NCBI GenBank assembly: GCA_024637295.1
Contig: JAGXFL010000013.1
Coordinates: forward strand, 62,001 to 126,000
Direction: 5' to 3'
Origin: Sulfuricurvum sp.
GTDB taxonomy: Bacteria > Campylobacterota > Campylobacteria > Campylobacterales > Sulfurimonadaceae
Length of the DNA: 64,000 nucleotides
How positions within the stretch are numbered: the stretch's first letter is position 1; each line of letters starts with the position of its first letter. Of this stretch, positions 7,985 to 22,233 are shown piece by piece. The translations under genes and the position numbers were made by a program. The notes under the pieces are model-generated. The model did no database searches. It was not told the origin of the DNA and saw only the letters and a program-made list of their open reading frames with translations.

Positions 7985-8061
7985 GCGTCCGTAGCTCAGC
8001 TGGATAGAGCACCGGTTTGCGGTACCGGCGGTCAGGGATTCGAATTCCTTCGGGCGCACCA
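7985..8061 (+). tRNA. tRNA-Arg, anticodon GCG
   Basis: A full 77-base cloverleaf with encoded CCA. The acceptor GCGTCCG pairs with CGGGCGC (one G-U). The D arm is GCTC/GAGC around AGCTGGATA. The anticodon stem is CCGGT/ACCGG with loop TTGCGGT, which puts GCG at positions 34-36. The variable loop has five bases. The T arm is AGGGA/TCCTT around TTCGAAT. GCG reads the arginine codons CGC and, by wobble, CGU. Most bacteria read these with an A34 (inosine) tRNA, so the G34 form is worth noting. The gene stands alone. Confidence 0.95.
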
Positions 8062-8123
8062 CTTACTTTCCTCAAAACACTCAATATATCTTTTCTAAGC
8101 TTAAACTAAAAAACTGTATTAAA

Positions 8124-8198
8124 TGGTTAAATTTTAATCAATATTTAGAACCATTACAGACGATAATTGGCTAAAATTATTTCAGATAAAAATATCTC
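8124..8198 (+). promoter_or_regulatory. narK promoter with shared palindrome, -10 box and start-site dyad
   Basis: The palindrome TGGTTAAATTTTAATCA lies at 8124-8140 (centre 8132). A -10 box TAAAAT begins at 8172, exactly 40 bases after the centre. A second dyad, AGAT-N6-ATCT, lies at 8184-8197 (centre 8190.5) around the expected start of transcription. The same three elements with the same spacing occur before the nrtA-like gene and before cobA. The palindrome is at about -52, which suits an activator. The regulator is unknown; the half-site spacing (TGRT-N9-ATCA) does not fit FNR. Confidence 0.75.
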
Positions 8199-8212
8199 AA
8201 ATAGGAGTACGA

Positions 8213-9490
8213 ATGAAATTCGCCGATTTAAAAAAAGAGGGACACTGGCCTACGCTGTTTTCTGCCTTCTTGTATTTTGACTTTAGTTTTATGATGTGGA
8301 CGATGCTAGGACCGCTTGCTACTGAGATTGGAGAGAGCCTCTCCTCTCGCGGGTTTACGATGAGTGACGATCAGCAAGCAACACTGCTTGCCATCCCTGT
8401 TTTGGCGGGAGCAATCTTGCGCTTAGTATTAGGGATTTTTGTGGATAAAATCGGACCTAAGAAAACGGCTGTCGCAGCACAGATCATTGTTATCGCGACC
8501 CTCTTTATGGCCTACATGAGTGCTGATTCCATTACCTACAATCAGCTGTTAGTTGTAGCGTTAGGTCTTGGTTTTGCCGGTGCATCGTTTGCCGTTGCCC
8601 TCCCACAAGCGGGTCAATGGTATCCGCCACGCCTTCAGGGAACGGTATTGGGAATTGCAGGTGCCGGTAACATCGGTGTGGTGATTGACTTTCTCTTTGC
8701 TCCTAAAATCGCAGAGCTTTGGGGATGGCCTTCTGTTTTCTTGGTTGGCGGCGTTCTTTCATTGCTTGTCCTCATTGCGTATATGTTTATGGCAAAAGAT
8801 GCCCCTGTATCGGTTTACAAACCCAATCCTAAAAAATTGGGCGATTACCTGAAGCTGATGCGTGATCGTGACACATGGTGGTTTAACCTCTTTTATGCCG
8901 TCTCTTTCGGTGGATTTATCGGATTCGCCAACTACATGAAAGTTTATTTGATGAACACCTACCAAGCCGATATGTCTGCGTTTGGAACTGATATCATGAA
9001 CGAGAGCAATGTCAAAGTCGTCGCAGGGTATTTCGGTGCGCTTTGTATCTTTGCAGGGGCAATGCTGCGTCCAGTAGGTGGTGCGGTTGCAGATAAGATG
9101 GGCGGCGTTAAATCACTTTATGTCTTTTTTAGTATGATCGTCGTACTTTCCAGTCTCAGTGCCTTTATCGCATTATCGTTTTGGGCTGCCATCTTGGTGA
9201 TGTTTCTCATCATGGCAAATCTCGGAATGGCAAACGGTGCAGTGTTCCAGCTCGTGCCACAGCGTTTTGGCAAAGACATCGGTGTTATGACGGGCCTTAT
9301 TGGTATGGCAGGTGGTTTTGGTGGAACAGCGTTGATCAAAACCTTCGGCTGGTCGCAAGGGGTATTTGATGGCTATACGGCAGGCTTTGTTATTTTTGCA
9401 GGTATGGTTGTCGTGGCCCTATTGGGAATCAGTTTGGTCAAGACACGTTGGAGAACCACGTGGGGTGCCACTGCTGGTGGGCGGATCTAA
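8213..9490 (+). CDS. NarK-type nitrate/nitrite MFS transporter
   Basis: A 425-residue major facilitator protein with about 12 hydrophobic segments. The start ATG follows AGGAG by about eight bases. The family signature between helices 2 and 3 is visible as GIFVDKIGPKKT (near residue 80), and GLGFAGASFAVALPQAGQWY with GAGNIGVV carries the Gly-rich nitrate signature regions of the NarK/NasA group. NarK proteins carry nitrate inward, with protons or in exchange for nitrite. Being first in a nitrate assimilation cluster and sharing its promoter design with the nrtA-like and cobA operons points to assimilatory uptake. It appears monocistronic. It partly duplicates the ABC importer downstream, perhaps at a different affinity. 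Confidence 0.9.
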   Translation: MKFADLKKEGHWPTLFSAFLYFDFSFMMWTMLGPLATEIGESLSSRGFTMSDDQQATLLAIPVLAGAILRLVLGIFVDKIGPKKTAVAAQIIVIATLFMAYMSADSITYNQLLVVALGLGFAGASFAVALPQAGQWYPPRLQGTVLGIAGAGNIGVVIDFLFAPKIAELWGWPSVFLVGGVLSLLVLIAYMFMAKDAPVSVYKPNPKKLGDYLKLMRDRDTWWFNLFYAVSFGGFIGFANYMKVYLMNTYQADMSAFGTDIMNESNVKVVAGYFGALCIFAGAMLRPVGGAVADKMGGVKSLYVFFSMIVVLSSLSAFIALSFWAAILVMFLIMANLGMANGAVFQLVPQRFGKDIGVMTGLIGMAGGFGGTALIKTFGWSQGVFDGYTAGFVIFAGMVVVALLGISLVKTRWRTTWGATAGGRI

Positions 9491-9524
9491 TCACCGATAC
9501 CTTCAAAATTTAGCTTCTCCTCAA

Positions 9525-9551
9525 GATGTGGCATCTTTGGATGCCATCATC
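9525..9551 (+). terminator. hairpin after narK, weak terminator candidate
   Basis: TGGCATC (9529-9535) pairs with GATGCCA (9540-9546) around a TTTG loop. The stem extends by GATG/CATC past a one-base bulge. There is no clear T-run afterwards, only a pyrimidine-rich stretch, so intrinsic termination is uncertain. It may instead be an mRNA-stabilising 3' hairpin. Confidence 0.35.
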
Positions 9552-9631
9552 GATAACTTTCCTTTCATCTCTTTGTCCACAAAATCACCTACGTCTTGAA
9601 CATTTATGCAAATTTTAAATAAGAAACATAT

Positions 9632-9709
9632 AACTGATTAATATTTAATCAGTTAGTTGCATATATAGTCGATTATTTAGATTACAATTATTTCAGATTT
9701 TTTAATCTT
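9632..9709 (+). promoter_or_regulatory. nrtA-operon promoter with shared palindrome, -10 box and start-site dyad
   Basis: The best copy of the operator is a 10-bp inverted repeat AACTGATTAA / TTAATCAGTT with a 3-base spacer (9632-9654, centre 9643). TACAAT begins at 9683, 40 bases after the centre. The dyad AGAT-N6-ATCT spans 9695-9708 (centre 9701.5), 58.5 bases after the operator centre. The 16 bases from the -10 box through CAGAT differ from the narK copy at only one position. Confidence 0.8.
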
Positions 9710-9725
9710 AAATAGGAGTTTCAAT

Positions 9726-11006
9726 ATGAAAAGTTTACATGTTCTTGGAAAAAGTGTTTTACTGCTCTCTCTTGCAGCATCGGTTGCTATGTCAGCAGTT
9801 GTTGAGAAAAAAGATCTCAAGATAGGGTTTATACCACTTACGGATTGTGCGGCACTCGTAATCGCAAAAGAAAAGGGTTTCTTTGCGAAACATGGTCTCA
9901 ATGTAGAGTTGAGCAAAGAAGCATCATGGGCAAACGTCCGTGACAAGATGACGGTTGGTGAGCTTGACGCATCACACATGCTTGCGGCAATGCCGATCGC
10001 ATCCACACTGGGTGTCGGAAGTACGAAAAAAGAGATGTTGGCCCTCATGGCATTGGGACAAAACGGGGATGCGATTACCGTATCGAACAAAATGTACGAT
10101 GCGATGATGGCAGCCGATTCTGCTGCTACTAAAAAAGGTTCCGCAGCAGCACTCAAAAAAGTGATTGCGGCAAAAACAATGGGTGTTCCTGAGTTTGGTA
10201 TGACGTTCCCTACGGGGACACACAACTACCATATCCGCTATTGGATGGGTGCAGGTGGAGTGAATCCCGATAGTGATATATCACTCAAAGTCGTTCCACC
10301 ACCGCAGATGGTGGCGAACATGACCGCAGGAAACATCGATGGATTTTGTGTAGGTGAACCGTGGAATCAACGTGCGGTCATGGGCAATGTTGGCAAAACA
10401 CTTATTACGGGGTATCAACTCTGGCAAGACGGTCCTGAAAAAGTACTCGGTGTTCAAAAAGCATTTGCCCAAAAATATCCTGAGACGACCAAGCAAATGA
10501 TCGAAGCAGTCATCGAAGCGGGTGTATGGCTTGATGCTTCATGGGAAAACCGTAAAGAGGCATCCGTGATCCTCTCAAATAAATCGTACGTCAATGCACC
10601 TAAAGACGTTATCGACAACTCGATGACGGGAACGTTTATGTTTACCAATGGCGTGAGCACTCCAATGCCAAACTTTAACCGTTTTGCAAAAGGCGGTGCT
10701 TTGTATCCGTACTACTCCCATGGATTGTGGCAAGTGACTCAAATGATCCGCTGGGGCCAATTGGATAAACCTGTCGACATGAAAAAGACAGTTGAGAGCG
10801 TTTATCGTCCCGATTTATTTGCAGCCGCTGCTAAAGAGGTGAAATACCCCCTTCCTGCATCAGGATGGAAAAAAGAGTCCAAATTTATCGATGGTGTGAC
10901 GTTTGATCCGAACAAATCGGTGGATTATATTTTTAATGCTCCGATTAAATCGCCAAAAATGACCAAAGAAGCACTTGCTAAAGTGAATAAATGGAAAGTC
11001 AAATAA
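9726..11006 (+). CDS. nrtA: ABC transporter nitrate-binding protein, NrtA-like
   Basis: A 426-residue periplasmic solute-binding protein with a Sec signal peptide ending near residue 22 (SVAMSA). It lacks the lipobox Cys that anchors cyanobacterial NrtA. LKIGFIPLTDCAALVIAKEK opens the mature domain. HNYHIRYWMGAGGVNPDSD and PPPQMVANMTAGNIDGFCVG with GEPWN are close to the NrtA/CmpA family signatures. The family binds nitrate (NrtA) or bicarbonate (CmpA); nitrate is favoured by the nitrate and nitrite reductase genes that follow. It heads an operon with the permease, ATPase and a porin. The ribosome site is AGGAG, about 9 bases before the ATG. Confidence 0.9.
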   Translation: MKSLHVLGKSVLLLSLAASVAMSAVVEKKDLKIGFIPLTDCAALVIAKEKGFFAKHGLNVELSKEASWANVRDKMTVGELDASHMLAAMPIASTLGVGSTKKEMLALMALGQNGDAITVSNKMYDAMMAADSAATKKGSAAALKKVIAAKTMGVPEFGMTFPTGTHNYHIRYWMGAGGVNPDSDISLKVVPPPQMVANMTAGNIDGFCVGEPWNQRAVMGNVGKTLITGYQLWQDGPEKVLGVQKAFAQKYPETTKQMIEAVIEAGVWLDASWENRKEASVILSNKSYVNAPKDVIDNSMTGTFMFTNGVSTPMPNFNRFAKGGALYPYYSHGLWQVTQMIRWGQLDKPVDMKKTVESVYRPDLFAAAAKEVKYPLPASGWKKESKFIDGVTFDPNKSVDYIFNAPIKSPKMTKEALAKVNKWKVK

Positions 11007-11022
11007 GTAAAAGGAGGCATTT

Positions 11023-11805
11023 ATGCTCTTAAGAACCATCAACATCGTTGCGTTACCGACACTGCTTTTTGGTGTCCTCATCGCTGTATGGTCAACGGTA
11101 GCCAACCAAATTCCAGGCTTCCCACCGCCTATGGAAGTGTGGAACGAATTGCTCGTTGTTCTATCAGATCCGATGTATGACAACGGTGCCGGAGATCAAG
11201 GGATTGCATTGCAACTCCTTAGTTCACTCAAGCGGGTATTTGGTGGATTTGCACTGGCAATCGCTGTGGGGATTCCTGTAGGTTTGCTGATCGGAATGTC
11301 CAAAATGGCGCAAACCGCCTTCAATCCGTACATTCAGATCCTCAAACCGGTTTCCCCGCTTGCGTGGTTACCGTTGGCGCTGTTTGTGTTCAAAGATGTG
11401 GATATGACGGCGATCTTCGTCATCTTTATCACTTCTATCTGGCCGATTATCATCAATACGGCTTTGGGAGTACGCAGTGTAAGTGAAGATTACCTCAATG
11501 TCGCCAAAGTATTGCAACTCACCGCATTTGAGAAAGTGTTTCAGATCATTCTTCCTGTTGCGGTGCCCTTTATCTTTACGGGGATGCGTTTGTCATTGGG
11601 GATTGCATGGTTGGTTATCGTCGCGGCTGAGATGCTCACTGGCGGTCTAGGGATCGGGTTTTGGATTTGGGATGAGTACAACAATCTCAACTATTCCCAT
11701 ATTATCATCGGGATCATTCTCATAGGCGTCGTCGGGTATATCCTCGACACCATTATGGGCTTTATCGCCGATCATTTTGATTATCGAAAGCGAGGCCGCG
11801 TATGA
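11023..11805 (+). CDS. nrtB: ABC transporter permease, NrtB-like
   Basis: A 260-residue inner-membrane permease of the NitT/TauT family with about six hydrophobic segments. The ATPase-contact EAA loop is visible around residues 155-175 (LNVAKVLQLTAFEKVFQIIL), and the conserved segment GMRLSLGIAWLVIVAAEML follows. The ATG comes after AAAGGAGG with good spacing, 16 bases downstream of the binding-protein gene. Its end overlaps the ATPase start by four bases. It forms the channel of the nitrate importer, probably as a homodimer since only one permease gene is present. Confidence 0.92.
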   Translation: MLLRTINIVALPTLLFGVLIAVWSTVANQIPGFPPPMEVWNELLVVLSDPMYDNGAGDQGIALQLLSSLKRVFGGFALAIAVGIPVGLLIGMSKMAQTAFNPYIQILKPVSPLAWLPLALFVFKDVDMTAIFVIFITSIWPIIINTALGVRSVSEDYLNVAKVLQLTAFEKVFQIILPVAVPFIFTGMRLSLGIAWLVIVAAEMLTGGLGIGFWIWDEYNNLNYSHIIIGIILIGVVGYILDTIMGFIADHFDYRKRGRV

Positions 11806-12599
11806 GTGCAAAACCTTTTTTAAACATCGATCATGTCGATAAGATTTTCCCGCTCGGACGTGGCAAAGAGTACGTAGCGTTGCGCGATGTTAAACTTGAA
11901 ATTCGTGAAAATGAGATTGTCTCCATCATCGGGCACTCAGGATGTGGTAAATCGACCCTGCTTAATATGATTGCAGGGCTTGATACCATATCTGAGGGTG
12001 TGATTTTACTCGAAGACCGAGAGATTAATGCCCCAGGCCCTGAGCGTGCAGTGGTGTTTCAAAACCATTCACTTCTGCCTTGGCTTACGGTATATCAAAA
12101 CATCGAGATGGCGGTGAGAAAAGTGCGTGATGATCTCAATGCCAAAGAGGTCAAAGAGCACGTTATGAAATACATAGACCTCGTCAATCTCGATCACGCA
12201 AAAGACAAATATCCCGGTGAAATCAGCGGAGGGATGAAGCAGCGTGTCGGAATCGCACGAGCACTCTCCATCGAGCCAAAAGTGCTTTTGATGGATGAGC
12301 CGTTTGGGGCACTCGACTCACTGACCCGTGCTAATTTGCAGGATCATTTGATGCGTATACAGATGCAAACGGGTAACACCGTCATTATCATCACCCATGA
12401 TGTCGATGAAGCGGTTTTGTTAAGCGATCGCGTCATCATGATGACCAATGGACCGGAGGCGACTATCGGAGAGATATTGGAAGTGAACCTTCCACGTCCA
12501 CGAGAGCGTTTGACTTTACAGCATAATGAAGAGTACCTACGGTGTCGTGGTGCCATTGTGGAGTTTTTATACTCTAAGTTCGCTAAACACGAAGACTAA
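11802..12599 (+). CDS. nrtD: ABC transporter ATP-binding protein, NrtD-like
   Basis: A 265-residue ATPase of the NitT/TauT importers. Walker A is GHSGCGKST (near residue 44), the signature is ISGGMKQRVGIARAL (near 145), Walker B is VLLMDEPFGALD, and the switch His follows in IIITHDVDEA. The protein lacks the extra C-terminal binding-protein-like domain found in cyanobacterial NrtC, so it resembles NrtD and probably works as a homodimer. It overlaps nrtB by ATGA and is followed 26 bases later by a porin gene. Powers nitrate uptake from the cytoplasmic face. Confidence 0.92.
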   Translation: MSAKPFLNIDHVDKIFPLGRGKEYVALRDVKLEIRENEIVSIIGHSGCGKSTLLNMIAGLDTISEGVILLEDREINAPGPERAVVFQNHSLLPWLTVYQNIEMAVRKVRDDLNAKEVKEHVMKYIDLVNLDHAKDKYPGEISGGMKQRVGIARALSIEPKVLLMDEPFGALDSLTRANLQDHLMRIQMQTGNTVIIITHDVDEAVLLSDRVIMMTNGPEATIGEILEVNLPRPRERLTLQHNEEYLRCRGAIVEFLYSKFAKHED

Positions 12600-12625
12600 A
12601 AAACAAAATACATAAGGAAATAGTT

Positions 12626-13876
12626 ATGAAAAAAATTACATTATCAGCAGTTGCCATTTTATCATTGGCCAGTACCTTTACTACAACGCTTAGTGCGGGG
12701 GATGACTTTACCCTCTTTAGCAAGGCAAAAGTCAACGGCGAAGTACGTCCTCGTTATGAATTTGTGGATGATGAGTCAAATACTCGTGATAAAGCCAATG
12801 CATACACCGTTCGTGCAACGATTGGTCTTGAAACAACCTTACTAGGAATTGATGGGTTAAGTATGAAAGTGGATGGAACGACCGTACAAACACTTGGAGG
12901 CACTGGATATGAAGATGCTACTGCTGACGCTAATTTACGCTATGACCGTGTAGCTGATCCAGAGCAAACACGCTTTACCCAAGGGTATCTACAGTATAAG
13001 ATGGGTGCAACTACTCTAAAAGCAGGGCGACAGATTGTCAACTTGGACAACCAGCGTTTCATCGGTTCGGTTGACTGGAGACAAATGCCGCAAAGTCTCG
13101 ATGCGGTATCCGTTACGAATACCTCTATTGCAGGATTGAGTCTATACGGTGCCTATGTGTACGATTACGCGACTGTCTTTAAAGAGGCGACTCAGCACAG
13201 TGAATCTGTTCTTTTGAATGGAAGCTACAAAGTCAACGATATGCTCAAAGTCACAGCCTATGACTATATGCTCTCGCTTGAAAAAAATCAGTTTGCAGCA
13301 GACACTATAGGGCTAGCCCTCAGTGGTGATATTCCAGCAGGAGATGTAAAAATAGGTTACCGTGCTGAATATGCAAAACAAGGTGATGCAACTTTTAAAA
13401 CAACCATGACGAATCTCAAAACCCAAAATGACGCAACCTATTACGATATTGAAGCAACGGCATCAATGATGGGTATTAGCGTAGGTGCCGGATATGAGTT
13501 ATTGAGCGGAACAACAGGAAGTGATGGAAAAACAAAATTCCAAACACCATTGGCAACATTGCATAAGTTTAACGGAACTGCTGATAAATTTCTCACAACG
13601 CCAACAGGCGGGATCGCGGATACCAGTGTTAGTCTAGGTTACGGCGCAAAAGATCTAGGCAATGCGATGATTACCTATCACGACTATAAAACGGATGTAG
13701 CAATGTCTGGGAAAAGTGATCTTGGAAGTGAATTAGATCTTCAATACGCTAATGCGATTCCAGGAGTAAAAGGTCTCAATGGTCTTATTAAAGCGGCTTT
13801 TTATGATGCTGGAGATGTTGCAACATTTACCAGTGATAAAACGGTAGTATGGGCACAAGTCGGTTATAAGTTCTAG
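12626..13876 (+). CDS. outer-membrane porin in the nitrate uptake operon
   Basis: A 416-residue beta-barrel protein with a signal peptide ending near residue 24 (TTTLSAG). Long alternating hydrophobic strands follow, and the C-terminal residue is Phe (WAQVGYKF), the usual barrel-assembly signal. It resembles the OprD/Campylobacterota porins of about 400 residues. It begins 26 bases after the ABC ATPase gene with its own AAGGAA ribosome site, so it is most likely cotranscribed with the nitrate importer and may be a nitrate-favouring channel; substrate choice is inferred from position only. A short GC-rich hairpin follows the stop. Confidence 0.82.
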   Translation: MKKITLSAVAILSLASTFTTTLSAGDDFTLFSKAKVNGEVRPRYEFVDDESNTRDKANAYTVRATIGLETTLLGIDGLSMKVDGTTVQTLGGTGYEDATADANLRYDRVADPEQTRFTQGYLQYKMGATTLKAGRQIVNLDNQRFIGSVDWRQMPQSLDAVSVTNTSIAGLSLYGAYVYDYATVFKEATQHSESVLLNGSYKVNDMLKVTAYDYMLSLEKNQFAADTIGLALSGDIPAGDVKIGYRAEYAKQGDATFKTTMTNLKTQNDATYYDIEATASMMGISVGAGYELLSGTTGSDGKTKFQTPLATLHKFNGTADKFLTTPTGGIADTSVSLGYGAKDLGNAMITYHDYKTDVAMSGKSDLGSELDLQYANAIPGVKGLNGLIKAAFYDAGDVATFTSDKTVVWAQVGYKF

Positions 13877-13881
13877 TATTC

Positions 13882-14457
13882 TCACCCCTTTGGGGTGGTT
13901 AGTCCAGTAAAAAACGCTTGGCACATAGCGATAATTTTCTCTTGTCGGCTTTTGCCTACGGGCTCGTTTTGACGGATTAAATGTACCTTGTCTATCAAGT
14001 CATGAATACCGTTTGGAATAGTGGCTGTCAAATATTTTCGCAGTGCCGAACTCACAGCAGGAGCCCGTCCGGCAGTATTGATCCCCACACACAGATCCCC
14101 CTGCACGATCAGTGCCGGAAAAATGAAACTGCACAATGTGGGAGAATCGACACAATTGACGGGGATTTTGGCTGCAATGCACTTTTCGTATATCTTTTTT
14201 TGTTCATCGATATTATCTAAAGCCGCAATGACTAAAAAACGCTTTTCCAAATCGTTTGGATTATAGTTTCGCTCGATGAAGATCATCGGATAGGTTTTTG
14301 AAAGCATCTGAATTTCCTCATGGACATGGGGAGCGATGACGGTAAGCTTGGGGGAAAACTTAATAAGCTGCTCGATTTTGCGTAATGCTATCTCACCTGC
14401 ACCGATCATCAAACAATCTTGATCTTTCAAATCAACAAACATTGGAAACAGTGCCAT
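13882..14457 (-). CDS. precorrin-2 dehydrogenase / sirohydrochlorin ferrochelatase (CysG N-terminal type)
   Basis: A 191-residue Met8p/CysG-N type enzyme. It oxidises precorrin-2 to sirohydrochlorin with NAD and may insert iron, making siroheme for NirA. The nucleotide-binding loop is MIGAGEIALRKIEQL (near residue 17), and NCVDSPTLCSFIFPA carries the conserved Asp needed for both activities. AAAGGA precedes the ATG by about seven bases. The gene points away from cobA, across the intergenic region that holds the shared operator. A TATTGT at 14484-14479 on this strand could be its -10 box, partly next to the palindrome, so one regulator could control both directions. Confidence 0.88.
   Translation of the reverse strand: MALFPMFVDLKDQDCLMIGAGEIALRKIEQLIKFSPKLTVIAPHVHEEIQMLSKTYPMIFIERNYNPNDLEKRFLVIAALDNIDEQKKIYEKCIAAKIPVNCVDSPTLCSFIFPALIVQGDLCVGINTAGRAPAVSSALRKYLTATIPNGIHDLIDKVHLIRQNEPVGKSRQEKIIAMCQAFFTGLTTPKG
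13883..13897. terminator. short hairpin between convergent porin and siroheme genes
   Basis: CACCCC pairs with GGGGTG around TTT. It sits just after the porin stop and inside the last codons of the opposite gene. No T-run follows on either strand, so its terminator activity is doubtful. A similar CACCC/GGGTG stem with a proper T-run ends the second porin gene at 31406. Confidence 0.35.
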
Positions 14458-14487
14458 TTTTTTATCCTTTAAACTAAGACAATAAAG

Positions 14488-14561
14488 TGATTAAAAAATA
14501 ATCACAAATTTGTTTTACCGAGTGACATTTTACACTATTATTCTTGCAGATAAAAAAGTCT
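14488..14561 (+). promoter_or_regulatory. cobA-nirA-narB promoter with shared palindrome, -10 box and start-site dyad
   Basis: The palindrome TGATTAAAAAATAATCA spans 14488-14504 (centre 14496). TATTAT begins at 14536, again exactly 40 bases after the centre. The dyad CAGAT-N6-GTCTG spans 14547-14562 with its centre at 14554.5, 58.5 bases after the operator centre. This is the third copy of the module and lies in the divergent space between the siroheme gene and cobA. Confidence 0.75.
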
Positions 14562-14586
14562 GAATAAAGATTTCAAGGAAACAATG

Positions 14587-15363
14587 ATGAACGGAAAACT
14601 CTATTTGATCGGTTGTGGTCCCGGTGATGCTGACCTGTTAACCCTCAAAGCAATCAAAACTATTTGTAAACTTGATGTTGCACTAATCGATCATCTCCTC
14701 ACGCAAGAGATCATTGATCTGATCCCACCGCAAACCAAAGTTGTTTTTGTCGGGAAAGAAAAAGGAAAACACAGCTTCCCTCAGGAACAAATCAACACTA
14801 TGATCGCTGAATATGCACACCAAGGATACAGTGTTGGCCGACTCAAATGCGGCGATCCGTACATCTTTGGGCGTGGAACGGAAGAGGCGATTTATGCGAC
14901 TTCTAAGGGAATTGAGACCGAAGTGATTCCGGGAATATCGTCGGCATTATCGGGACCTTTGTCTGTTGGAATTGCTCCGACAGCCCGTGGTGTCAGTACG
15001 GGAGTCTCGATCGTATCGGCACACTTGTCAGGTGATAGGGTCAACCTCTCATGGATTCCAATGCTTGCAGTTGGCGATCATACGACCGTAGTTTTGATGG
15101 GGCTTAGCCGAATACGCCAAATTGTCAAAGAAGCTTTGGAGCAGGGGATCGATCCTCATCTGCCTGTCGCTATTGTCTCCAATGCTACAACCTCGATCCA
15201 AAGTTCCATGGTGACCACACTTTCCCAGCTGGCTACAACGGCCAAAGGGGCACCAAAACCGGCGATCTTAGTCTTCGGCGAAGTGGTCAATCTCTCTGGA
15301 ATACTTCCAAAATACCAATATGAGACGAAGGAGGTACCGTATGACATCGCTAATGCAGGCTAA
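14587..15363 (+). CDS. cobA: uroporphyrinogen-III C-methyltransferase
   Basis: SUMT adds two methyl groups from S-adenosylmethionine to uroporphyrinogen III, giving precorrin-2, the first step of siroheme synthesis. GCGPGDADLLTLKA near the N-terminus, GRLKCGDPYIFGRG (near residue 80) and EVIPGISSAL are the conserved SUMT motifs. About 258 residues, the normal length of a stand-alone enzyme, so the CysG function is split over two genes here. ATG codons occur at 14584 and 14587; AAGGAA at 14575-14580 is better spaced for the second. Its end overlaps nirA, and it is the first gene of the cobA-nirA-narB operon. Confidence 0.93.
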   Translation: MNGKLYLIGCGPGDADLLTLKAIKTICKLDVALIDHLLTQEIIDLIPPQTKVVFVGKEKGKHSFPQEQINTMIAEYAHQGYSVGRLKCGDPYIFGRGTEEAIYATSKGIETEVIPGISSALSGPLSVGIAPTARGVSTGVSIVSAHLSGDRVNLSWIPMLAVGDHTTVVLMGLSRIRQIVKEALEQGIDPHLPVAIVSNATTSIQSSMVTTLSQLATTAKGAPKPAILVFGEVVNLSGILPKYQYETKEVPYDIANAG

Positions 15364-17251
15364 TGAAGTGCGCAGTGCCAAACGCCATAAGACCGAATCG
15401 ATCAAGGACGCTTTTAATGCGGATGAAGCCTGGGATCGTCTGATAGGTTATTCCAAAAACGGCTATGCTTCGATCAGCGAGGATGATAAAGATTTTGTCC
15501 TTAAAAGTTTCGGTATTTTTGATCGTCCTGCTACGCCTGAACGTTTTATGATCCGTGTACGGATTGCCGGAGGTGCTTTGAGTGTTGAGCAGGCTATGGC
15601 AGTCGCTTATGTCGCTAAAACATTTGGACAAGACTACATCGACCTTACTACGCGTCAACAGATCGAACTTCGTTATCTGCGAATCGAGGATATTCCTGAA
15701 GCCTTCAAACGCTTAGAAGATGTAGGACTCACCAGTTATCAGACCGGAGTCGATAATTTTCGCAATATTTTGATCGATCCGCTCGATGCGATGGCCATGG
15801 ATAACATCATCTCTTGCCGCAGTATTATGGAAGGGATTCAATCCATATTTTTGAAAAATCCTGATTGGATCACGACTCTCCCTCGTAAATTCAACATCGG
15901 CATTAACGGATCCCTTTCCAATCGATGCAATATCTTCGGTCAAGACTTCGCTCTCTCGCTCGCCCAAAAAGAGGGTGTGTACGGATTTAATCTGTTTCTA
16001 GGAGGTCGTGTCGGATCGTTAGCGCAAAATGCGGATATGTTTGTTGCACCCAGTGAAGCGGTGAAGGTATTTGTGGCGGTAGCTACCCTTTTTAAAACCT
16101 ACGGTTTCCGTGATAATCGTAATAAAAATCGTCTCAAATTTCTCATCGAAGCAGTTGGAATCCAGGAGTTTCGAGCGGCTATCGAAGAACAGCTTGGGCA
16201 CTCAATGGCGACAGCGGGAGAGTCTTTAACGGCATTGGAAGGGGGAGACCATTACGGAAAAATAACCCTTAAAGACGGTTCATTTGCCCTTTATTCTGCG
16301 GTACCTTCGGGTGTTTTTAGCGGAACAGACCTCCATTATGCGGCCCAGATCGCCCAAACACAAAACGGTACGATTCGTCTGACGATAGAACAAAACCTGA
16401 TCATCACAGGTATTCATGATGAAGAGAAGGCTCTTCAATCACCGTTATTTGTCAAATATCCAAATCGTCCTTCACCATATATGGCAAACCTCATTGCGTG
16501 TGCAGGCAGCGAACATTGTCCTTTTGGTGTTATACCGGGTAAACCCGATGCGATCACCATGAGCGAGTATCTCGAACGTACCGTACCGATCGAAGATGCC
16601 AAAATACGTCTCTATTGGTCAGCTTGTATCAAAGGATGCGGTGTACACGGTGCGGGAGATTTAGGGTTTGTCGGGTGTAAAGTAGCGAAAAACGGTAAAA
16701 CAGTGCTGGGAGTCGATATATTCATCGGGGGGACACTTAGCGGCGAGGGGGGTGAGGGTCATCTTCTTCTCAAGGGAATCGTCCTAGATGAAGCCCGTGA
16801 ATACGTAGCTCAACTGATGCGCCAATATCGTGATCTAAAAATTTCCAAAGAGAGTCTGGAGCAATTTATTCATCGTTTGCAAAATCGTTACAGTAACTAT
16901 GCGATTGGATTTTTAATGCGATGGAACCGACTTATGGAGCAAAACGCACTTGAATCTCACCTGTATTTTAATCTAAAAACGCATGGGGGAAGTCATCAAG
17001 AGGGCGATGAAATCTACGATTTTGGATTGGCACTGGTGCAATCGATAACCAAAACAAAAGCCTATGAGGTCGAAGATCCGTTTGTTGAAGGGAAAAAACC
17101 TTATAGCTTTGATAAAAAATCGTTGGATGTACGGTATGCTCCTTATAAAGAAATTATCGAAAAAATGGTTCAGCCCAATCCGATGCTTCGGTATCAAGTC
17201 TTTACAGAGATTGTAAACGATATCGAGAAAACAATCCATGAAAGCCAATAG
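15341..17251 (+). CDS. nirA: siroheme-dependent nitrite reductase (NirA type)
   Basis: Reduces nitrite to ammonium with six electrons, probably from ferredoxin, in the cytoplasm. Two ferredoxin-like/siroheme repeats are visible. The [4Fe-4S]-siroheme cysteines are in CAGSEHC (C-x5-C) and CIKGC (C-x3-C), followed by a Gly-rich GGTLSGEGGEG segment. The frame opens at 15320, but AAGGAGG at 15328-15334 fits ATG 15341, giving 636 residues. This is longer than typical NirA (about 500-560), with roughly 110 extra residues at the C-terminus that I do not recognise. A sulfite reductase is the alternative, but flanking cobA and narB favour nitrite. Confidence 0.9.
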   Translation: MTSLMQANEVRSAKRHKTESIKDAFNADEAWDRLIGYSKNGYASISEDDKDFVLKSFGIFDRPATPERFMIRVRIAGGALSVEQAMAVAYVAKTFGQDYIDLTTRQQIELRYLRIEDIPEAFKRLEDVGLTSYQTGVDNFRNILIDPLDAMAMDNIISCRSIMEGIQSIFLKNPDWITTLPRKFNIGINGSLSNRCNIFGQDFALSLAQKEGVYGFNLFLGGRVGSLAQNADMFVAPSEAVKVFVAVATLFKTYGFRDNRNKNRLKFLIEAVGIQEFRAAIEEQLGHSMATAGESLTALEGGDHYGKITLKDGSFALYSAVPSGVFSGTDLHYAAQIAQTQNGTIRLTIEQNLIITGIHDEEKALQSPLFVKYPNRPSPYMANLIACAGSEHCPFGVIPGKPDAITMSEYLERTVPIEDAKIRLYWSACIKGCGVHGAGDLGFVGCKVAKNGKTVLGVDIFIGGTLSGEGGEGHLLLKGIVLDEAREYVAQLMRQYRDLKISKESLEQFIHRLQNRYSNYAIGFLMRWNRLMEQNALESHLYFNLKTHGGSHQEGDEIYDFGLALVQSITKTKAYEVEDPFVEGKKPYSFDKKSLDVRYAPYKEIIEKMVQPNPMLRYQVFTEIVNDIEKTIHESQ

Positions 17252-19289
17252 CACCGTCCTAACAGGCTGCCCGTTTTGTGGTACTGGATGCGCACTCAAT
17301 GTTGAGTGTAGTGAAAACGGATACAAAGTCAAAGGAGACAAAACAAATCCCTCTACCCAAGGGGATTTATGTTTCAAACCGATCCAGATGGCAAAGGCGC
17401 TCGATGCGCATCGTCTGACCTCCCCTCTTTACCGCAAAGATAAAACAAAACCTTTTGAAGAGATATCATGGGAAGAAGCAATCACCCTAATAGCCCAAAA
17501 TATTTCTGATCTTCCAAGAGAAGAACTTTATTTTTATCTTTCAGGACAGCTTCTTACCGAGGAGAGCTATCTTTTTACAAAACTCATCAAAGGGCATTTA
17601 GGGATCAACAACGTAGATGCAAACTCCCGCCTTTGTATGGCGACTGCTGTAGTCGCCCATAAAATGGCATTTGGAAGTGACGGTCCTGTAGGCAATTATT
17701 CTGATATTGATGATGCCGATGCTATTGTTATCAGTGGTTCTAATCCTGCTTGGGCACATCCGGTAATCTTTCGCCGAATAATGGCCCGTAAAAAAGCCCA
17801 TCCGGAGACAAAAATCATTGTCATTGATCCGATATATACCGAGACAGCCGAAAAAAGTGATCTATGGATCGGTCTCTGTAGTGGAAGTGATACGACCCTT
17901 TACAACGCCCTTTTAGCAGAGATATATAGACGTGGCAGATGTGATACCGCCTTTATAGATCGTGCTACCGAAGGGTTTGAAGACGTCATCAATACTGTTT
18001 TGGATGTCCCGTTCGCCCAATCGATCACTTCGTGTGGGCTTTTAATCGAGGATGCAGAGGTACTTATTGAGTTGTTTGCTTCTCAAAAAAAGATACTTGG
18101 ATTATGGTGTCAGGGACTTAATCAAGCCGTAGACGGAGTTATGCGCAATCTTGGGTTTATCAACCTTTTTCTAGCCACTGGACGTATAAATGCGCTAAAA
18201 GGGTCTCCTCTATCACTTACAGGTCAACCCAATGCTATGGGAGGGAGGGAAGTCGGGTATTTATCCAATGGGCTTCCGGGATACCGTGATGTACGTAATT
18301 TGCAGGATAGAACGGTATGTGAAGACCATTGGAACCTTCCGAAAAATACGATTTTTCCTATGCCCGGTATCACCATCACCGATGCTATTGATGCTATAGT
18401 AAACAATGAGATCAAATTTTTATGGGTTGCGTGCACTAACCCGCTGCTGACCCTTCCTGATTTTAACAAAACACAGCGTGCACTTAAAAACTCGAACCTC
18501 TTTTTAGTTGTCCAAGATTGTGTCCTTAGTGAAACGGCATCTCTCGCCAATCTCGTTTTGCCAACACTTTCATGGGGAGAAAAAGAGGGAAGCATGACCA
18601 ATTCAGAACGCTTTATCAAACGGGTACGTCCTTTTAAATCCGGCCCTGATGAAGCCAAAAGTGACAGCGTTATTATTTGCAACGTTGCACAGAAGCTTGG
18701 ATTTAAAGGTTTTGATTACTCTGACTCCAAAGCCATATTTAATGAGTATAAAGAACTCACAAAGACTCGGCTTTGCGATCAAAGTACTCAAGAGTATGAG
18801 TCCCTTTCGTACCAATGGGGAGGCAAATACCTCTATGCGGATGAGTACTTTGCCACACCAACAGGCAAAGCACAATTTCATCCAATCATTTCTTCTTTTC
18901 CATCTCCGGATACTAACACATTTGTATTGATTACCGGTCGGACAAAAAAACAATGGCATACGATGACCCGTACTCAACACGTTCCTGAACTTTTAAGAGC
19001 AGAAGAACATCCCTATCTTTTGATGAACTCTGAGGAAGGAGCTAAGATGGGAATACAGGAGGGAGACATCGCCGTTATCAGTAATCATCTAGGGGATCTT
19101 GAACTACCGGTACGTTTTGGAAAACTTGCCCCTAGACATTTGTTTGCGCCGTTTGGTTATGGGAAAACGCCTATTAATACGCTCGTTCCTGCAATCAGTG
19201 ATCCTTTTTCATTTCAAAGTGCACTTAAATCAGCACGTGTTACAGTCAGAATAAAAAATAAAATGGCCGCAATTTTATTGATGCATTAG
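17238..19289 (+). CDS. assimilatory nitrate reductase catalytic subunit (NarB/NasA type)
   Basis: A 683-residue cytoplasmic molybdopterin oxidoreductase without a Tat signal, which fits an assimilatory rather than a periplasmic enzyme. The N-terminal [4Fe-4S] site is CPFCGTGC plus the Cys in DLCFKP. NSRLCMATAV carries the Mo-ligating Cys near residue 132. LTGQPNAMGGREVGYLSNG is typical of NarB/NasA, and the C-terminal domain binds the pterin (FVLITGRTKKQWHTMTRT). It has no extra C-terminal [2Fe-2S] domain, so it resembles ferredoxin-dependent NarB. Its ATG overlaps the nirA stop by 14 bases. No dedicated electron donor is encoded nearby. Confidence 0.92.
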   Translation: MKANSTVLTGCPFCGTGCALNVECSENGYKVKGDKTNPSTQGDLCFKPIQMAKALDAHRLTSPLYRKDKTKPFEEISWEEAITLIAQNISDLPREELYFYLSGQLLTEESYLFTKLIKGHLGINNVDANSRLCMATAVVAHKMAFGSDGPVGNYSDIDDADAIVISGSNPAWAHPVIFRRIMARKKAHPETKIIVIDPIYTETAEKSDLWIGLCSGSDTTLYNALLAEIYRRGRCDTAFIDRATEGFEDVINTVLDVPFAQSITSCGLLIEDAEVLIELFASQKKILGLWCQGLNQAVDGVMRNLGFINLFLATGRINALKGSPLSLTGQPNAMGGREVGYLSNGLPGYRDVRNLQDRTVCEDHWNLPKNTIFPMPGITITDAIDAIVNNEIKFLWVACTNPLLTLPDFNKTQRALKNSNLFLVVQDCVLSETASLANLVLPTLSWGEKEGSMTNSERFIKRVRPFKSGPDEAKSDSVIICNVAQKLGFKGFDYSDSKAIFNEYKELTKTRLCDQSTQEYESLSYQWGGKYLYADEYFATPTGKAQFHPIISSFPSPDTNTFVLITGRTKKQWHTMTRTQHVPELLRAEEHPYLLMNSEEGAKMGIQEGDIAVISNHLGDLELPVRFGKLAPRHLFAPFGYGKTPINTLVPAISDPFSFQSALKSARVTVRIKNKMAAILLMH

Positions 19290-19370
19290 TTTTCACTTTA
19301 TGTATCAATTTTGGTTATATTAATATTAGTATTGTTAGAATTGGGTAACTTTAAGATAAGAGGGTTACTT

Positions 19371-20252
19371 ATGATTAAAAAAATCTTGTTATTAGTACTC
19401 GCACTTTTGATGATTTCGTGTTCTTCCCCTTACGATAAACCTCTTAAAATCTCTGCAACAACCTGGATTGGCTACACCCCTTTGTTTTATGCAAAAGAGA
19501 AAGGTTGGCTTGAACCATTGAACATTAAAGTCACGAATGTCGTATCATTGGCAGAAAATATGGCTTTGTATCAATCCGGCAATTTTGATGCGTATGTCGG
19601 AACACAGTACGAATACAGTGTTCTCTCGTACAAAGAGAGTTCTTTGCACGCCGTGATGATGTTTGACCGTTCCTACGGGGGCGATGTAGTGATGGGCAAC
19701 GTCTCTATCAATGATCTAAAAAATACAAATACTGCGATCGATGTGTACTTGGAAATGGATTCGATCAATATCACCTTACTCAACGATTTCCTGAAAAAAT
19801 ATAAATTAGAAGCAAAAAAACTTAACCATATTAATAAGGATCAGGCCTATATCGCTACGCTTAACGAATCCGATATGAAAAATCCGACTCTGATTATCAC
19901 CTATTCTCCCTACGATAATTATTTGACTAAAAATGGTTTTAAAGAGCTTGCCTCTACCAAAGAAAGCCTTGATTTGTTGGTTGTCGATGCGATGTTTACG
20001 ACGGATAAAGTATATGATGAACATCAGAAGCAGTTTGTGGAACTAAAAAAATTGGTCGAAAAATCATTAAGTGCGTTAGAAGCCAATCCAAAAGAGTATT
20101 ATGAAACTGTAAAAGCGTATCTCCCCGAAACCAGTTATGAAGAGTTTCAACACTCTTTGGAAGATATTGTTTGGATCAATAAAACGATTTCTCCTCAGCT
20201 GCAAGAGCGGTTGAATCAAGCAGATTTCCCTATTCGAAAAGTGATCCAATAA
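19371..20252 (+). CDS. substrate-binding lipoprotein, NitT/TauT-type, paired with GGDEF-EAL protein
   Basis: A 293-residue solute-binding protein with a lipoprotein signal (LLVLALLMISCSS), so it is anchored at a membrane facing the periplasm. KISATTWIGYTPLFYAKEKG opens an NMT1/SsuA-like fold related to the NrtA family. The frame is open from 19311, but AGAGGG fits the ATG at 19371, which also starts the lipoprotein signal. No permease or ATPase accompanies it. Instead the next gene, one base after its stop, encodes a membrane GGDEF-EAL protein with a periplasmic domain. I infer a sensory role, presenting a ligand (possibly nitrate or another small anion) to that protein. Confidence 0.8.
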   Translation: MIKKILLLVLALLMISCSSPYDKPLKISATTWIGYTPLFYAKEKGWLEPLNIKVTNVVSLAENMALYQSGNFDAYVGTQYEYSVLSYKESSLHAVMMFDRSYGGDVVMGNVSINDLKNTNTAIDVYLEMDSINITLLNDFLKKYKLEAKKLNHINKDQAYIATLNESDMKNPTLIITYSPYDNYLTKNGFKELASTKESLDLLVVDAMFTTDKVYDEHQKQFVELKKLVEKSLSALEANPKEYYETVKAYLPETSYEEFQHSLEDIVWINKTISPQLQERLNQADFPIRKVIQ

Positions 20253-20253
20253 T

Positions 20254-22233
20254 ATGGTTATTCATAGATTTATCCTTATAATTACGCTGTTGTTTACCCT
20301 GTCGATTTATACTTTATTTGGCTACTATTTTTTTAAACAAGAAGAGGCTATGGCTTCGGTAGTGTTAAAAACGCTCAACAGCAATCTCTCTGAGACGAGC
20401 TATCAACTATCGAAAAACATGAGTACCAAAGAAGACATTGTCGTATCCCGCCCTATCTTGGATCGAATCGCCGCCAGTCAATCTTACATCAGTGCGATTG
20501 TCGTTCTTGATGCTGCTAAAGTCGTATTAAGTACGGATCCCCATTATGGAGTCCAATCTGTCTATGCAAATAATCTTTCTTTTGAGAGTGATTACAAAAC
20601 ATTGACGGAAAAAAAATTCCTAGAGCAAGAGATCCGGTTTTATGTTGGAAACCATCTCGAAACACTCACTCTTGTGTATGTGCTTGATCATCATGAGATT
20701 CAAACCCATTTTATTCAAAATCAGAAAGATTTTTTAACTTATTTTGGATTGCTACCCATCTTTTTATTGTTTGTTATGTTTATGCTGTTACGACGTTTTA
20801 TCTCTGTTCCTCTGGAAAGACTGCGTCAATTTGCCTATTATCAGAGTGCTATTCCAAGTGCATTTAAAGTTCGTGAGCTTGAATCAATCCGCTATTCGAT
20901 GGTCCAGACTTTTGCTCGATTGGAAGCCGAAAAAAATGAGCTTTATTTGATCGCGCGAACCGATGCGTTAAGTGGATTGGCAAATCGAAATTCCCTAGAA
21001 GAGTATCTGGAGAAACTCATTTCCGCCTCAGAGAGGGCAAATAAAGAGTTTGCTTTTCTTTTTTTGGATGTTGACCATTTTAAAAGTGTCAACGATTCCT
21101 TGGGACATAATGTAGGGGATGAACTTTTGCAAAATGTTGCAGGGGTTATTCAAAAAGTGGTACGGCCAAACGATATCGTAGCACGTATCGGTGGGGATGA
21201 ATTTGTTATTGTTCTTCAAGACTATTCGTCGTATTTAGAGCTTTCGAATATCATAGAGAGAATACAAAAACAGCTGACACGTCCATGGCTTATACAAAAC
21301 AATCCAATACATATCAGCAGCAGTATAGGGATCGCATTGTATCCCAATGACGGAAAAGATTTGGTGACCTTGATGAAGCATTCCGATATTGCTATGTATC
21401 AAGCGAAGAAACAAGGGCGCGCACAATATCAGTTCTTTACACAAGAGTTAAATCAAAGTATTCAATATACTATTATGTTGGACAAAGAGATGAAATGGGC
21501 TCTTGAACATGATGAATATGAACTCTATTATCAACCAAAGATTGACTTGAAGAGCGGTAAAATAGTGGGGGTAGAAGCGTTGATCCGATGGAACAGTGCT
21601 GAACGTGGGATGATTACTCCTGATAAGTTCATTCCGCTTGCAGAAGAAAATGGCTTTATAATCAAGCTTGGGGAGTGGATTATAGACGAAGCCCTCAATC
21701 AACATTTACGGTGGAAAGAAAAAGGGATCGATATCGTTATTTCCATCAATATATCGACAAAGCAATTGCTGTATAGTGATTTTGTCAATACACTCATAGA
21801 AAAGTTTGAAACCAAACACATCGATCCCGCAAGTATTGACATCGAGATTACGGAATATATGTTTATTGATGCCAATAAGGAGAGTCATGCAATCTTAAAA
21901 GCAATCAGCGACTACGGTATCACCATTTCGTTGGATGATTTTGGAACGGGATACTCTTCACTATCGTATTTGAAAAAATTTCCTATTGATTATTTGAAAA
22001 TCGATAAGACATTTTTGGATGATTATGATACGGAAGATGGAGCCACTTTTATTGAGACCATTGTAAAAATGGGACAAATCTTGAAGATAAAAGTAGTCGC
22101 CGAAGGGGTTGAGCAAGAGGCTCAAGTTGACTTTCTAAAAGAGATAGGGTGCGATCAGTATCAAGGGTATTGTTTTTCTAAACCACTTCAAGCAGCTGCT
22201 TTTGAGAGAATACATTTTAGTTCCGTTGTATAG
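20254..22233 (+). CDS. membrane GGDEF-EAL protein (c-di-GMP turnover)
   Basis: A 659-residue protein: helix 1 (about 7-28), a periplasmic region (about 30-155), helix 2 (about 163-180), then GGDEF (about 230-390) and EAL (about 405-650) domains. The synthase motif IGGDEFV is intact, with an inhibitory RxxD (RPND) exactly five residues before it. The phosphodiesterase motifs are also intact (VEALIRW, DDFGTGYSSL, VVAEGVE), so it could make and break c-di-GMP. It has no visible ribosome site and starts one base after the binding-lipoprotein gene, so the pair is almost certainly cotranslated. The periplasmic part is a plausible docking surface for that lipoprotein. Confidence 0.93.
   Translation: MVIHRFILIITLLFTLSIYTLFGYYFFKQEEAMASVVLKTLNSNLSETSYQLSKNMSTKEDIVVSRPILDRIAASQSYISAIVVLDAAKVVLSTDPHYGVQSVYANNLSFESDYKTLTEKKFLEQEIRFYVGNHLETLTLVYVLDHHEIQTHFIQNQKDFLTYFGLLPIFLLFVMFMLLRRFISVPLERLRQFAYYQSAIPSAFKVRELESIRYSMVQTFARLEAEKNELYLIARTDALSGLANRNSLEEYLEKLISASERANKEFAFLFLDVDHFKSVNDSLGHNVGDELLQNVAGVIQKVVRPNDIVARIGGDEFVIVLQDYSSYLELSNIIERIQKQLTRPWLIQNNPIHISSSIGIALYPNDGKDLVTLMKHSDIAMYQAKKQGRAQYQFFTQELNQSIQYTIMLDKEMKWALEHDEYELYYQPKIDLKSGKIVGVEALIRWNSAERGMITPDKFIPLAEENGFIIKLGEWIIDEALNQHLRWKEKGIDIVISINISTKQLLYSDFVNTLIEKFETKHIDPASIDIEITEYMFIDANKESHAILKAISDYGITISLDDFGTGYSSLSYLKKFPIDYLKIDKTFLDDYDTEDGATFIETIVKMGQILKIKVVAEGVEQEAQVDFLKEIGCDQYQGYCFSKPLQAAAFERIHFSSVV

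Follow-up and report, generated by a model that had tools for sequence, protein, structure and literature searches.

A substrate-binding lipoprotein (SBP) gene and, one base behind it, the gene for a membrane protein with GGDEF and EAL domains lie side by side in Sulfuricurvum sp., within a 64,000-nucleotide stretch of contig JAGXFL010000013.1 (positions 62,001 to 126,000; termed here the window). The pairing of this SBP with a signaling enzyme is real and strongly conserved, and there is good reason to regard the two genes as encoding one two-part receptor, in which the SBP would provide the input that switches the GGDEF-EAL enzyme. The arrangement itself is of a known kind; the best reading is that of a sensor resembling the NspS-MbaA system but built upon a different, apparently undescribed SBP family--that is, of a widespread two-part sensor of sulfur-oxidizing bacteria that probably sets the biofilm messenger cyclic di-guanosine monophosphate (c-di-GMP).

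Conservation of the pairing was assessed by searching the 228 genomes of the window's family for the SBP, which yielded matches in 84, and by extracting the surrounding neighborhoods. (Genes were called with an in-house longest open reading frame (ORF) method, and domains were assigned via phmmer using pieces of the partner and two kinase pieces rather than curated models throughout.) The window and the family loci together provide 97 SBP genes, 81 of which score at least 140 bits; two of the 81 lie at a contig end, and in 76 of the other 79 the next same-strand gene has a GGDEF, EAL or kinase match. The three exceptions, which were assigned by hand, are a masked ORF (locus L058) and a frameshifted gene (L061), both of which encode GGDEF/EAL, and a locus cut by a contig end (L051). 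The same-strand neighbor starts within -4 to +3 nucleotides in 73 of 78 cases, most commonly (48 of 78) with a 4-nucleotide overlap. Below 140 bits the pairing mostly continues down to about 33 bits, in two-component loci with response regulators; the lowest-scoring loci (L123-L125) have transporter-type SBPs, and two others (L121 and L122) fit neither pattern.

A scan of named genomes contributed 80 loci, including ones from Thiomicrorhabdus, Hydrogenovibrio, Colwellia, Halothiobacillus, Methylotenera, Gallionellaceae, Sulfurovum, Aliarcobacter and Nautiliaceae (several of these genomes are metagenome bins, and single names may be wrong); within a phylum sample, 45 of 397 genomes have an SBP match. 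When named loci identical to loci already in the set are counted once, 117 distinct SBPs from Campylobacterota, gammaproteobacteria and betaproteobacteria are obtained. The next gene encodes a membrane signaling protein in 113 of these (96 c-di-GMP enzymes and 17 histidine kinases); the remaining four are unreadable, either because the partner is cut by a contig end (L166, L192 and L200) or because the contig ends past the SBP (L092). Transporter genes follow the SBP in none of the 117. This set leaves out L121 (34 bits) and L122 (30 bits), whose next gene is non-signaling (L121 itself follows a GGDEF gene with a 4-nucleotide overlap), L123-L125 (25-29 bits, SBPs of the ATP-binding cassette (ABC) transporter type) and SBP fragments shorter than 240 residues (L074, L126 and L127); no SBP ORF was called in three of the 80 named loci (L160, L179 and L199) nor in L062, where tblastn detects the SBP with an EAL-type match behind it. 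The preliminary description of the window, made from the sequence alone, had regarded occurrence of the pair chiefly beside unrelated genes or a complete ABC transporter as fatal to its proposal of a two-part sensor; the counts instead favor the pair.

These counts also bear on a simpler explanation, namely that the SBP works for an ABC importer whose genes lie at another site and adjoins the signaling gene for reasons of co-expression only. SBP genes located apart from transporter genes are known (PMC9602780), as are adjacent sbp-kinase pairs whose products make no contact (PMC11113362; here and below, statements attributed to cited articles refer to the available portions of them), but all 113 readable relatives keep an adjoining membrane signaling protein, across several classes and with the output type changing, which makes this explanation quite improbable.

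The N-terminus of the SBP is a hydrophobic stretch ending in MISCSS, that is, in a lipobox-like cysteine. By sequence, its match to the Pfam family NMT1 (PF09084) is marginal (E = 0.081; 13.3 bits, under the cut-off of 20.5), its top curated relative in NCBIfam is TIGR03427, a 'putative urea SBP' (26.4 bits, far under the cut-off of 333.9), and a sequence search of the PDB returned no credible relative, the matches being to ankyrin repeats, myosin and ribosomal proteins. An AlphaFold model, built from an alignment of 55 relatives (mean predicted local distance difference test (pLDDT) score 95.7), nevertheless has the NMT1/SsuA-type fold: the matches include SsuA (Z = 21.6; root-mean-square deviation 3.5 over 262 residues), TauA (Z = 20.0), CmpA (Z = 18.0) and NrtA (Z = 16.8). 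The initial label 'NitT/TauT-like' is therefore right at the level of fold class. The top curated and fold matches are all of NMT1/SsuA/TauA type; none among those listed is of the PotD/NspS type, an absence that is uninformative. Nine residues are invariant in all 117 SBPs: W32, G34, P37, T78, S101, D105, E128, P180 and D206. Six of them (W32, T78, S101, D105, E128 and D206) are situated mostly within or just past strands of the model; the pocket candidates, which were taken from strand ends of this predicted model and not from a ligand-bound structure, are acidic and aromatic.

The SBP stop codon ends at 20252 and the partner's ATG lies at 20254. This one-base spacing, and the intact GGDEF, I-site and EAL motifs originally reported, were confirmed by coordinates, Pfam and a motif check, with GGDEF (residues 235-390) and EAL (residues 415-644) both scoring above their Pfam cut-offs; the motifs fit a bifunctional enzyme, although the activities themselves are predicted from sequence. 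Between the partner's membrane helices is a domain predicted to form a PAS/Cache-like sheet with long flanking helices (model pLDDT 91), which by fold is most similar to the WalK extracellular domain (Z = 10.6, with a Foldseek E-value of only 0.01) and for which the LuxQ periplasmic domain is also among the matches (Z = 8.2). Among 46 partner N-termini, E208 is the sole invariant residue, with D70, P186 and L187 nearly invariant. The periplasmic domain diverges about 2.2 to 2.4 times as fast as the SBP (mean distance 1.64 versus 0.73 in 35 pairs of the window type, defined as having an SBP scoring at least 300 bits against that of the window). Because it is the SBP that has invariant residues and the periplasmic domain that diverges faster, sequence comparison suggests that the ligand is recognized by the SBP and that the SBP, in turn, is recognized by the receptor domain.

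The mechanism proposed is as follows. The lipoprotein would act as a periplasmic Venus-flytrap binding protein tethered to the membrane by its lipid anchor; binding (or loss) of ligand would reshape it, such that it docks on the partner's small PAS/Cache-like domain; and the signal would then pass through the two membrane helices and a linker to the cytoplasmic GGDEF-EAL module, toggling it between c-di-GMP synthesis and breakdown. Probable downstream targets are attachment polysaccharide and motility. Stimulation of c-di-GMP enzymes and kinases by SBPs is a recognized general mechanism (PMC9602780). Three points weigh against the proposed receptor. First, gene adjacency may lack a functional link: in two Pseudomonas aeruginosa neighborhoods with adjacent sbp and kinase genes the products did not interact, AgtS binding neither AgtB nor PA0602 (PMC11113362). 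Second, a mirror-tree comparison of the SBP with the periplasmic domain gives a partial correlation, given the cytoplasmic domains, of 0.46 for the 35 window-type pairs but of 0.07 for 28 other pairs (112 of 500 permutations being as high), so that coevolution beyond shared descent is not general. Third, most neighborhoods consist of housekeeping genes (pyrD, rlmN, proS, prfB and ilvE) that name no process. The window's own genome has 25 EAL matches, so that the cell must have numerous c-di-GMP inputs besides this pair.

The output module has been exchanged in evolution between c-di-GMP enzymes and histidine kinases. On a tree of the 117 SBPs, this partner label changes at least four times, versus 16 times in shuffles, and two of the changes are forced by well-supported branches (the tree comes from a quick method that used no mixture model, and long branches triggered a warning from the program). 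Proteobacterial SBPs are nested among campylobacterotal ones, and because the two interleave, transfer between phyla is likely. The c-di-GMP partners themselves fall into two size classes. Among those shorter than 720 residues (n = 65), GGDEF is intact in 63, the I-site in 55 and an EAL, EGL, ESL or ECL-x-R motif in 64; among those of at least 720 residues (n = 28; e.g., L049, L059 and L066), GGDEF is mostly degenerate (GSDEY in 15) and EALxR is kept in 25. No output domain is retained more widely across the c-di-GMP partners than EAL, so the output that they share would most likely be a gain or loss in the breakdown of c-di-GMP. Within clades having the longer partners, the SBP often lacks a lipobox and is apparently anchored by an uncleaved N-terminal helix. 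Among the kinase loci, the partner of the SBP in L035, L041 and L042 is a histidine kinase roughly 1450 residues long, with a response regulator and a ParA/MinD-like ATPase upstream in L035. In L082 (1676-4615) the kinase behind the SBP seems, by eye, to carry at its own N-terminus an additional binding-protein domain resembling SBP_bac_3, which would place two binding proteins in one receptor.

The pair does stand directly behind a nitrate reductase gene, as originally noted: a gene of the molybdopterin nitrate-reductase type (17238-19289) ends 82 base pairs upstream of the SBP gene. The preliminary description envisaged a sensor loaded with an anion such as nitrate, which would couple c-di-GMP to the supply of nitrate; of this proposal the dedicated pairing of an SBP with a c-di-GMP enzyme stands, and nitrate does not. 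In two close relatives (L091 and L092, whose SBPs are 80 and 84% identical to that of the window) colinearity with the window extends to 8061, where a tRNA-Arg gene ends, and begins again at 19307 (L092) or 19416 (L091); the nitrate block of about 11 kb in between is missing there, although both genomes have nrtA elsewhere. The more distant L103, from another genus, shows the same upstream genes before its pair, which makes an insertion in the lineage of the window more plausible than a loss in the others. Genome G076 carries nrt genes on another contig that share 90.5% DNA identity with the window, whereas the genes on either side of the block share about 80%; the block behind the tRNA-Arg gene may be mobile or recombining. 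(No integrase was recognized in the ORF list around the block at 7985-19306.) The pair retains a conserved 5' region of its own with a promoter-like block; in a general scan, promoters and terminators were not clearly more frequent than in shuffles. The position of the nitrate block between the tRNA-Arg gene and the pair explains the adjacency to nitrate reductase, and the pair is independent of its nitrate neighbors. Nor does its SBP belong to the nrt operon: the pair occurs without adjoining nrt genes, and the window's nrtABC has its own NrtA. The earlier statement that the lipoprotein has no transporter partners holds for this SBP, but elsewhere in the window (9726-12599) an Nrt ABC transporter is encoded together with an SBP of its own.

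Co-occurrence and residue comparisons point the same way. NrtA is present in 7 of 25 genomes with a window-type SBP versus 47 of 203 others (p = 0.62), and in 25 of 84 genomes with any SBP versus 29 of 144 without (p = 0.11), kinship being ignored in both tests; within the SBP clade nearest to the window, three genomes (its own, G072 and G076) do have NrtA. The SBP shares the general fold of the cluster F-I oxyanion binders NrtA and CmpA, but its family has invariant acidic residues and lacks the lysine that, together with a histidine, balances the charge of nitrate in NrtA (K269 and H196; PMC8786288, with residue roles also from PMC13204499; numbers are offset by 29 from the chain index of PDB entry 2g29, a numbering of our own). 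Aligned with 2g29, the window's NrtA keeps W102, H196 and K269 and has Asp at Q155, whereas in an alignment of very distant proteins the K269 column holds Asp (D206), with no basic residue, in all 117 SBPs; when the SBP family was compared by profile with the NrtA of the window, no more than 34 columns were aligned. Such a distant alignment is insufficient alone, but it combines with synteny and co-occurrence to make nitrate unlikely, and nitrate was therefore rejected as the ligand; a nitrate or nitrite sensor is, in our judgment, very improbable despite the shared fold class and the position behind nitrate reductase.

What the SBP binds instead is probably, judging from the acidic pocket of the model, a cation or a polar molecule such as an amide. 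One specific form of this idea is that the ligand, sensed through the same receptor mechanism, is a small cation or amide akin to that of TIGR03427 (such as urea, guanidine or an amine). TIGR03427 is the best curated relative; three SBPs scanned from the nine remotest signaling members (L083, L085 and L086) score 89 to 106 bits against it; and T78, D99, S101, D105, P180 and D206, several of them pocket candidates, are common to its true members L123 and L125. On the other hand, E128 and W32 differ in those two members, L085 and L086 score higher against the sulfonate family TIGR01728, the ligand assigned to TIGR03427 is no more than a curator's guess, and the pocket residues come from model strand ends. 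The genomic setting differs as well: in L123 and L125 the SBP is followed by a 274-residue gene without a signaling match (its product in L125 being ABC-permease-like by eye). This narrower proposal is possible but tentative.

The only recurrent neighbors of the pair are phosphate genes: pstS, pstC or pstA flank 8 of 25 window-type loci (L093, L095, L101, L102, L104, L106, L108 and L109) versus 0 of 72 others (Fisher p = 7e-6, kinship ignored), with phoU, ppk2, PhoB-like or PhoR-like genes in some of them. The window-type SBP might accordingly be imagined to report phosphate or phosphonate, coupling c-di-GMP to phosphorus supply, and the second-best fold match of the SBP is indeed TauA holding 2-aminoethylphosphonate. 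Such linkage is absent, however, from the window and from the annotated Thiomicrorhabdus loci L153, L154 and L157; clades in which pst linkage is never seen have the identical invariant pocket; no Arg or Lys is among the invariant SBP columns listed; and the linkage may reflect phosphate-controlled expression rather than phosphate binding. A phosphorus sensor is thus unlikely, though less so than a nitrate sensor. In one pst-linked locus (L093, 9115-15360), pstS and ppk2 are followed by pgaB-pgaC-pgaD, which lead into the pair; this may be a cluster connecting phosphate via c-di-GMP to poly-N-acetylglucosamine (PNAG); PgaC and PgaD are c-di-GMP effectors (PMC12564702). In L112, motA-motB-fliP lead directly into the pair; in L113 and L114, from the same genus, the two genes preceding the pair match those of L112 in length. 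The features of the window discussed here are collected in Table 1.

Table 1. Coordinates, in the window, of the receptor genes, their domains and the adjoining features.
Feature	Position	Strand	Basis
Substrate-binding lipoprotein (SBP), 293 residues, SsuA/TauA-type fold	19371..20252	+	ORF; AlphaFold model pLDDT 95.7; PDB fold matches
Membrane GGDEF-EAL protein, 659 residues, starting one base past the SBP stop	20254..22233	+	ORF; Pfam GGDEF and EAL above cut-off
Periplasmic sensor domain codons (about residues 30-158), PAS/Cache-like, flanked by two hydrophobic helices	20341..20727	+	Model pLDDT 91; WalK fold match
GGDEF domain codons, intact GGDEF (residue 313), I-site RxxD (residue 304)	20956..21423	+	Pfam; motif check
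EAL domain codons, catalytic residues intact	21496..22185	+	Pfam; motif check
5' region of the pair, TAGAAT promoter-like block; conserved in relatives without nitrate genes here	19307..19370	+	blastn; alignment
Nitrate assimilation block (MFS (major facilitator superfamily) transporter, nrtABC, porin, cobA/nir-like genes, nitrate reductase), outside the system; insertion/deletion between tRNA-Arg and the pair	8062..19306	+	Absent there in L091 and L092
tRNA-Arg (gcg), bounding the nitrate block on the left	7985..8061	+	ARAGORN

Several known systems provide a context for the proposed two-part receptor. The nearest one whose mechanism has been worked out is NspS-MbaA, which reportedly occurs also in Sinorhizobium meliloti; NspS belongs to the PotD-type polyamine binders. 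Like the pair here, the Vibrio cholerae system consists of a periplasmic binding protein and an inner-membrane GGDEF-EAL receptor, and its loaded binding protein shifts this bifunctional receptor from c-di-GMP breakdown to synthesis (PMC8967002); MbaA has SGDEF and EVL motifs (same source), whereas the partner here has GGDEF and EAL. The working principle also applies here in that the SBP gene adjoins a membrane GGDEF-EAL gene and lacks a transporter of its own; the differences are that the SBP has an SsuA/TauA-type fold without a sequence relative in the PDB and that its family also pairs with histidine kinases. LuxP and TorT are binding-protein partners of the histidine kinases LuxQ and TorS; the 17 kinase pairs among the 113 readable relatives and the LuxQ fold match resemble this type, but the binding-protein family and the receptor domains differ. 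A literature search, with subscription journals mostly outside its scope, found no printed description of such a pair and no paper combining NMT1 with GGDEF, and the available portion of a 2022 census names SBP_bac_3 as the only domain of the periplasmic-binding-protein (PBP) clan studied in c-di-GMP networks (PMC8846402). The SBP family, its exclusive signaling role, its cross-phylum range and its exchange of outputs thus look undescribed in the literature searched.

More speculatively, and with the balance of probability against it as a whole, this signaling-only lipoprotein family with one invariant acidic pocket might constitute a portable input cartridge of chemolithotrophic Campylobacterota and Pseudomonadota, through which one cue is wired, depending on lineage, to c-di-GMP enzymes, pure phosphodiesterases or histidine kinases and which, in one clade, lies inside the phosphate regulon and couples attachment by PNAG to a nutrient cue. 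The case also serves as a caution that adjacency to a metabolic cluster can be an accident of insertion. Few SBP-driven c-di-GMP receptors have known inputs, and this family offers 113 readable natural pairs sharing one invariant pocket. Because c-di-GMP and kinase outputs have been exchanged, the rule governing docking is testable by comparison; and because so many pairs share one pocket, a single screened ligand would probably explain the sensor of many sulfur-oxidizing vent and groundwater bacteria.

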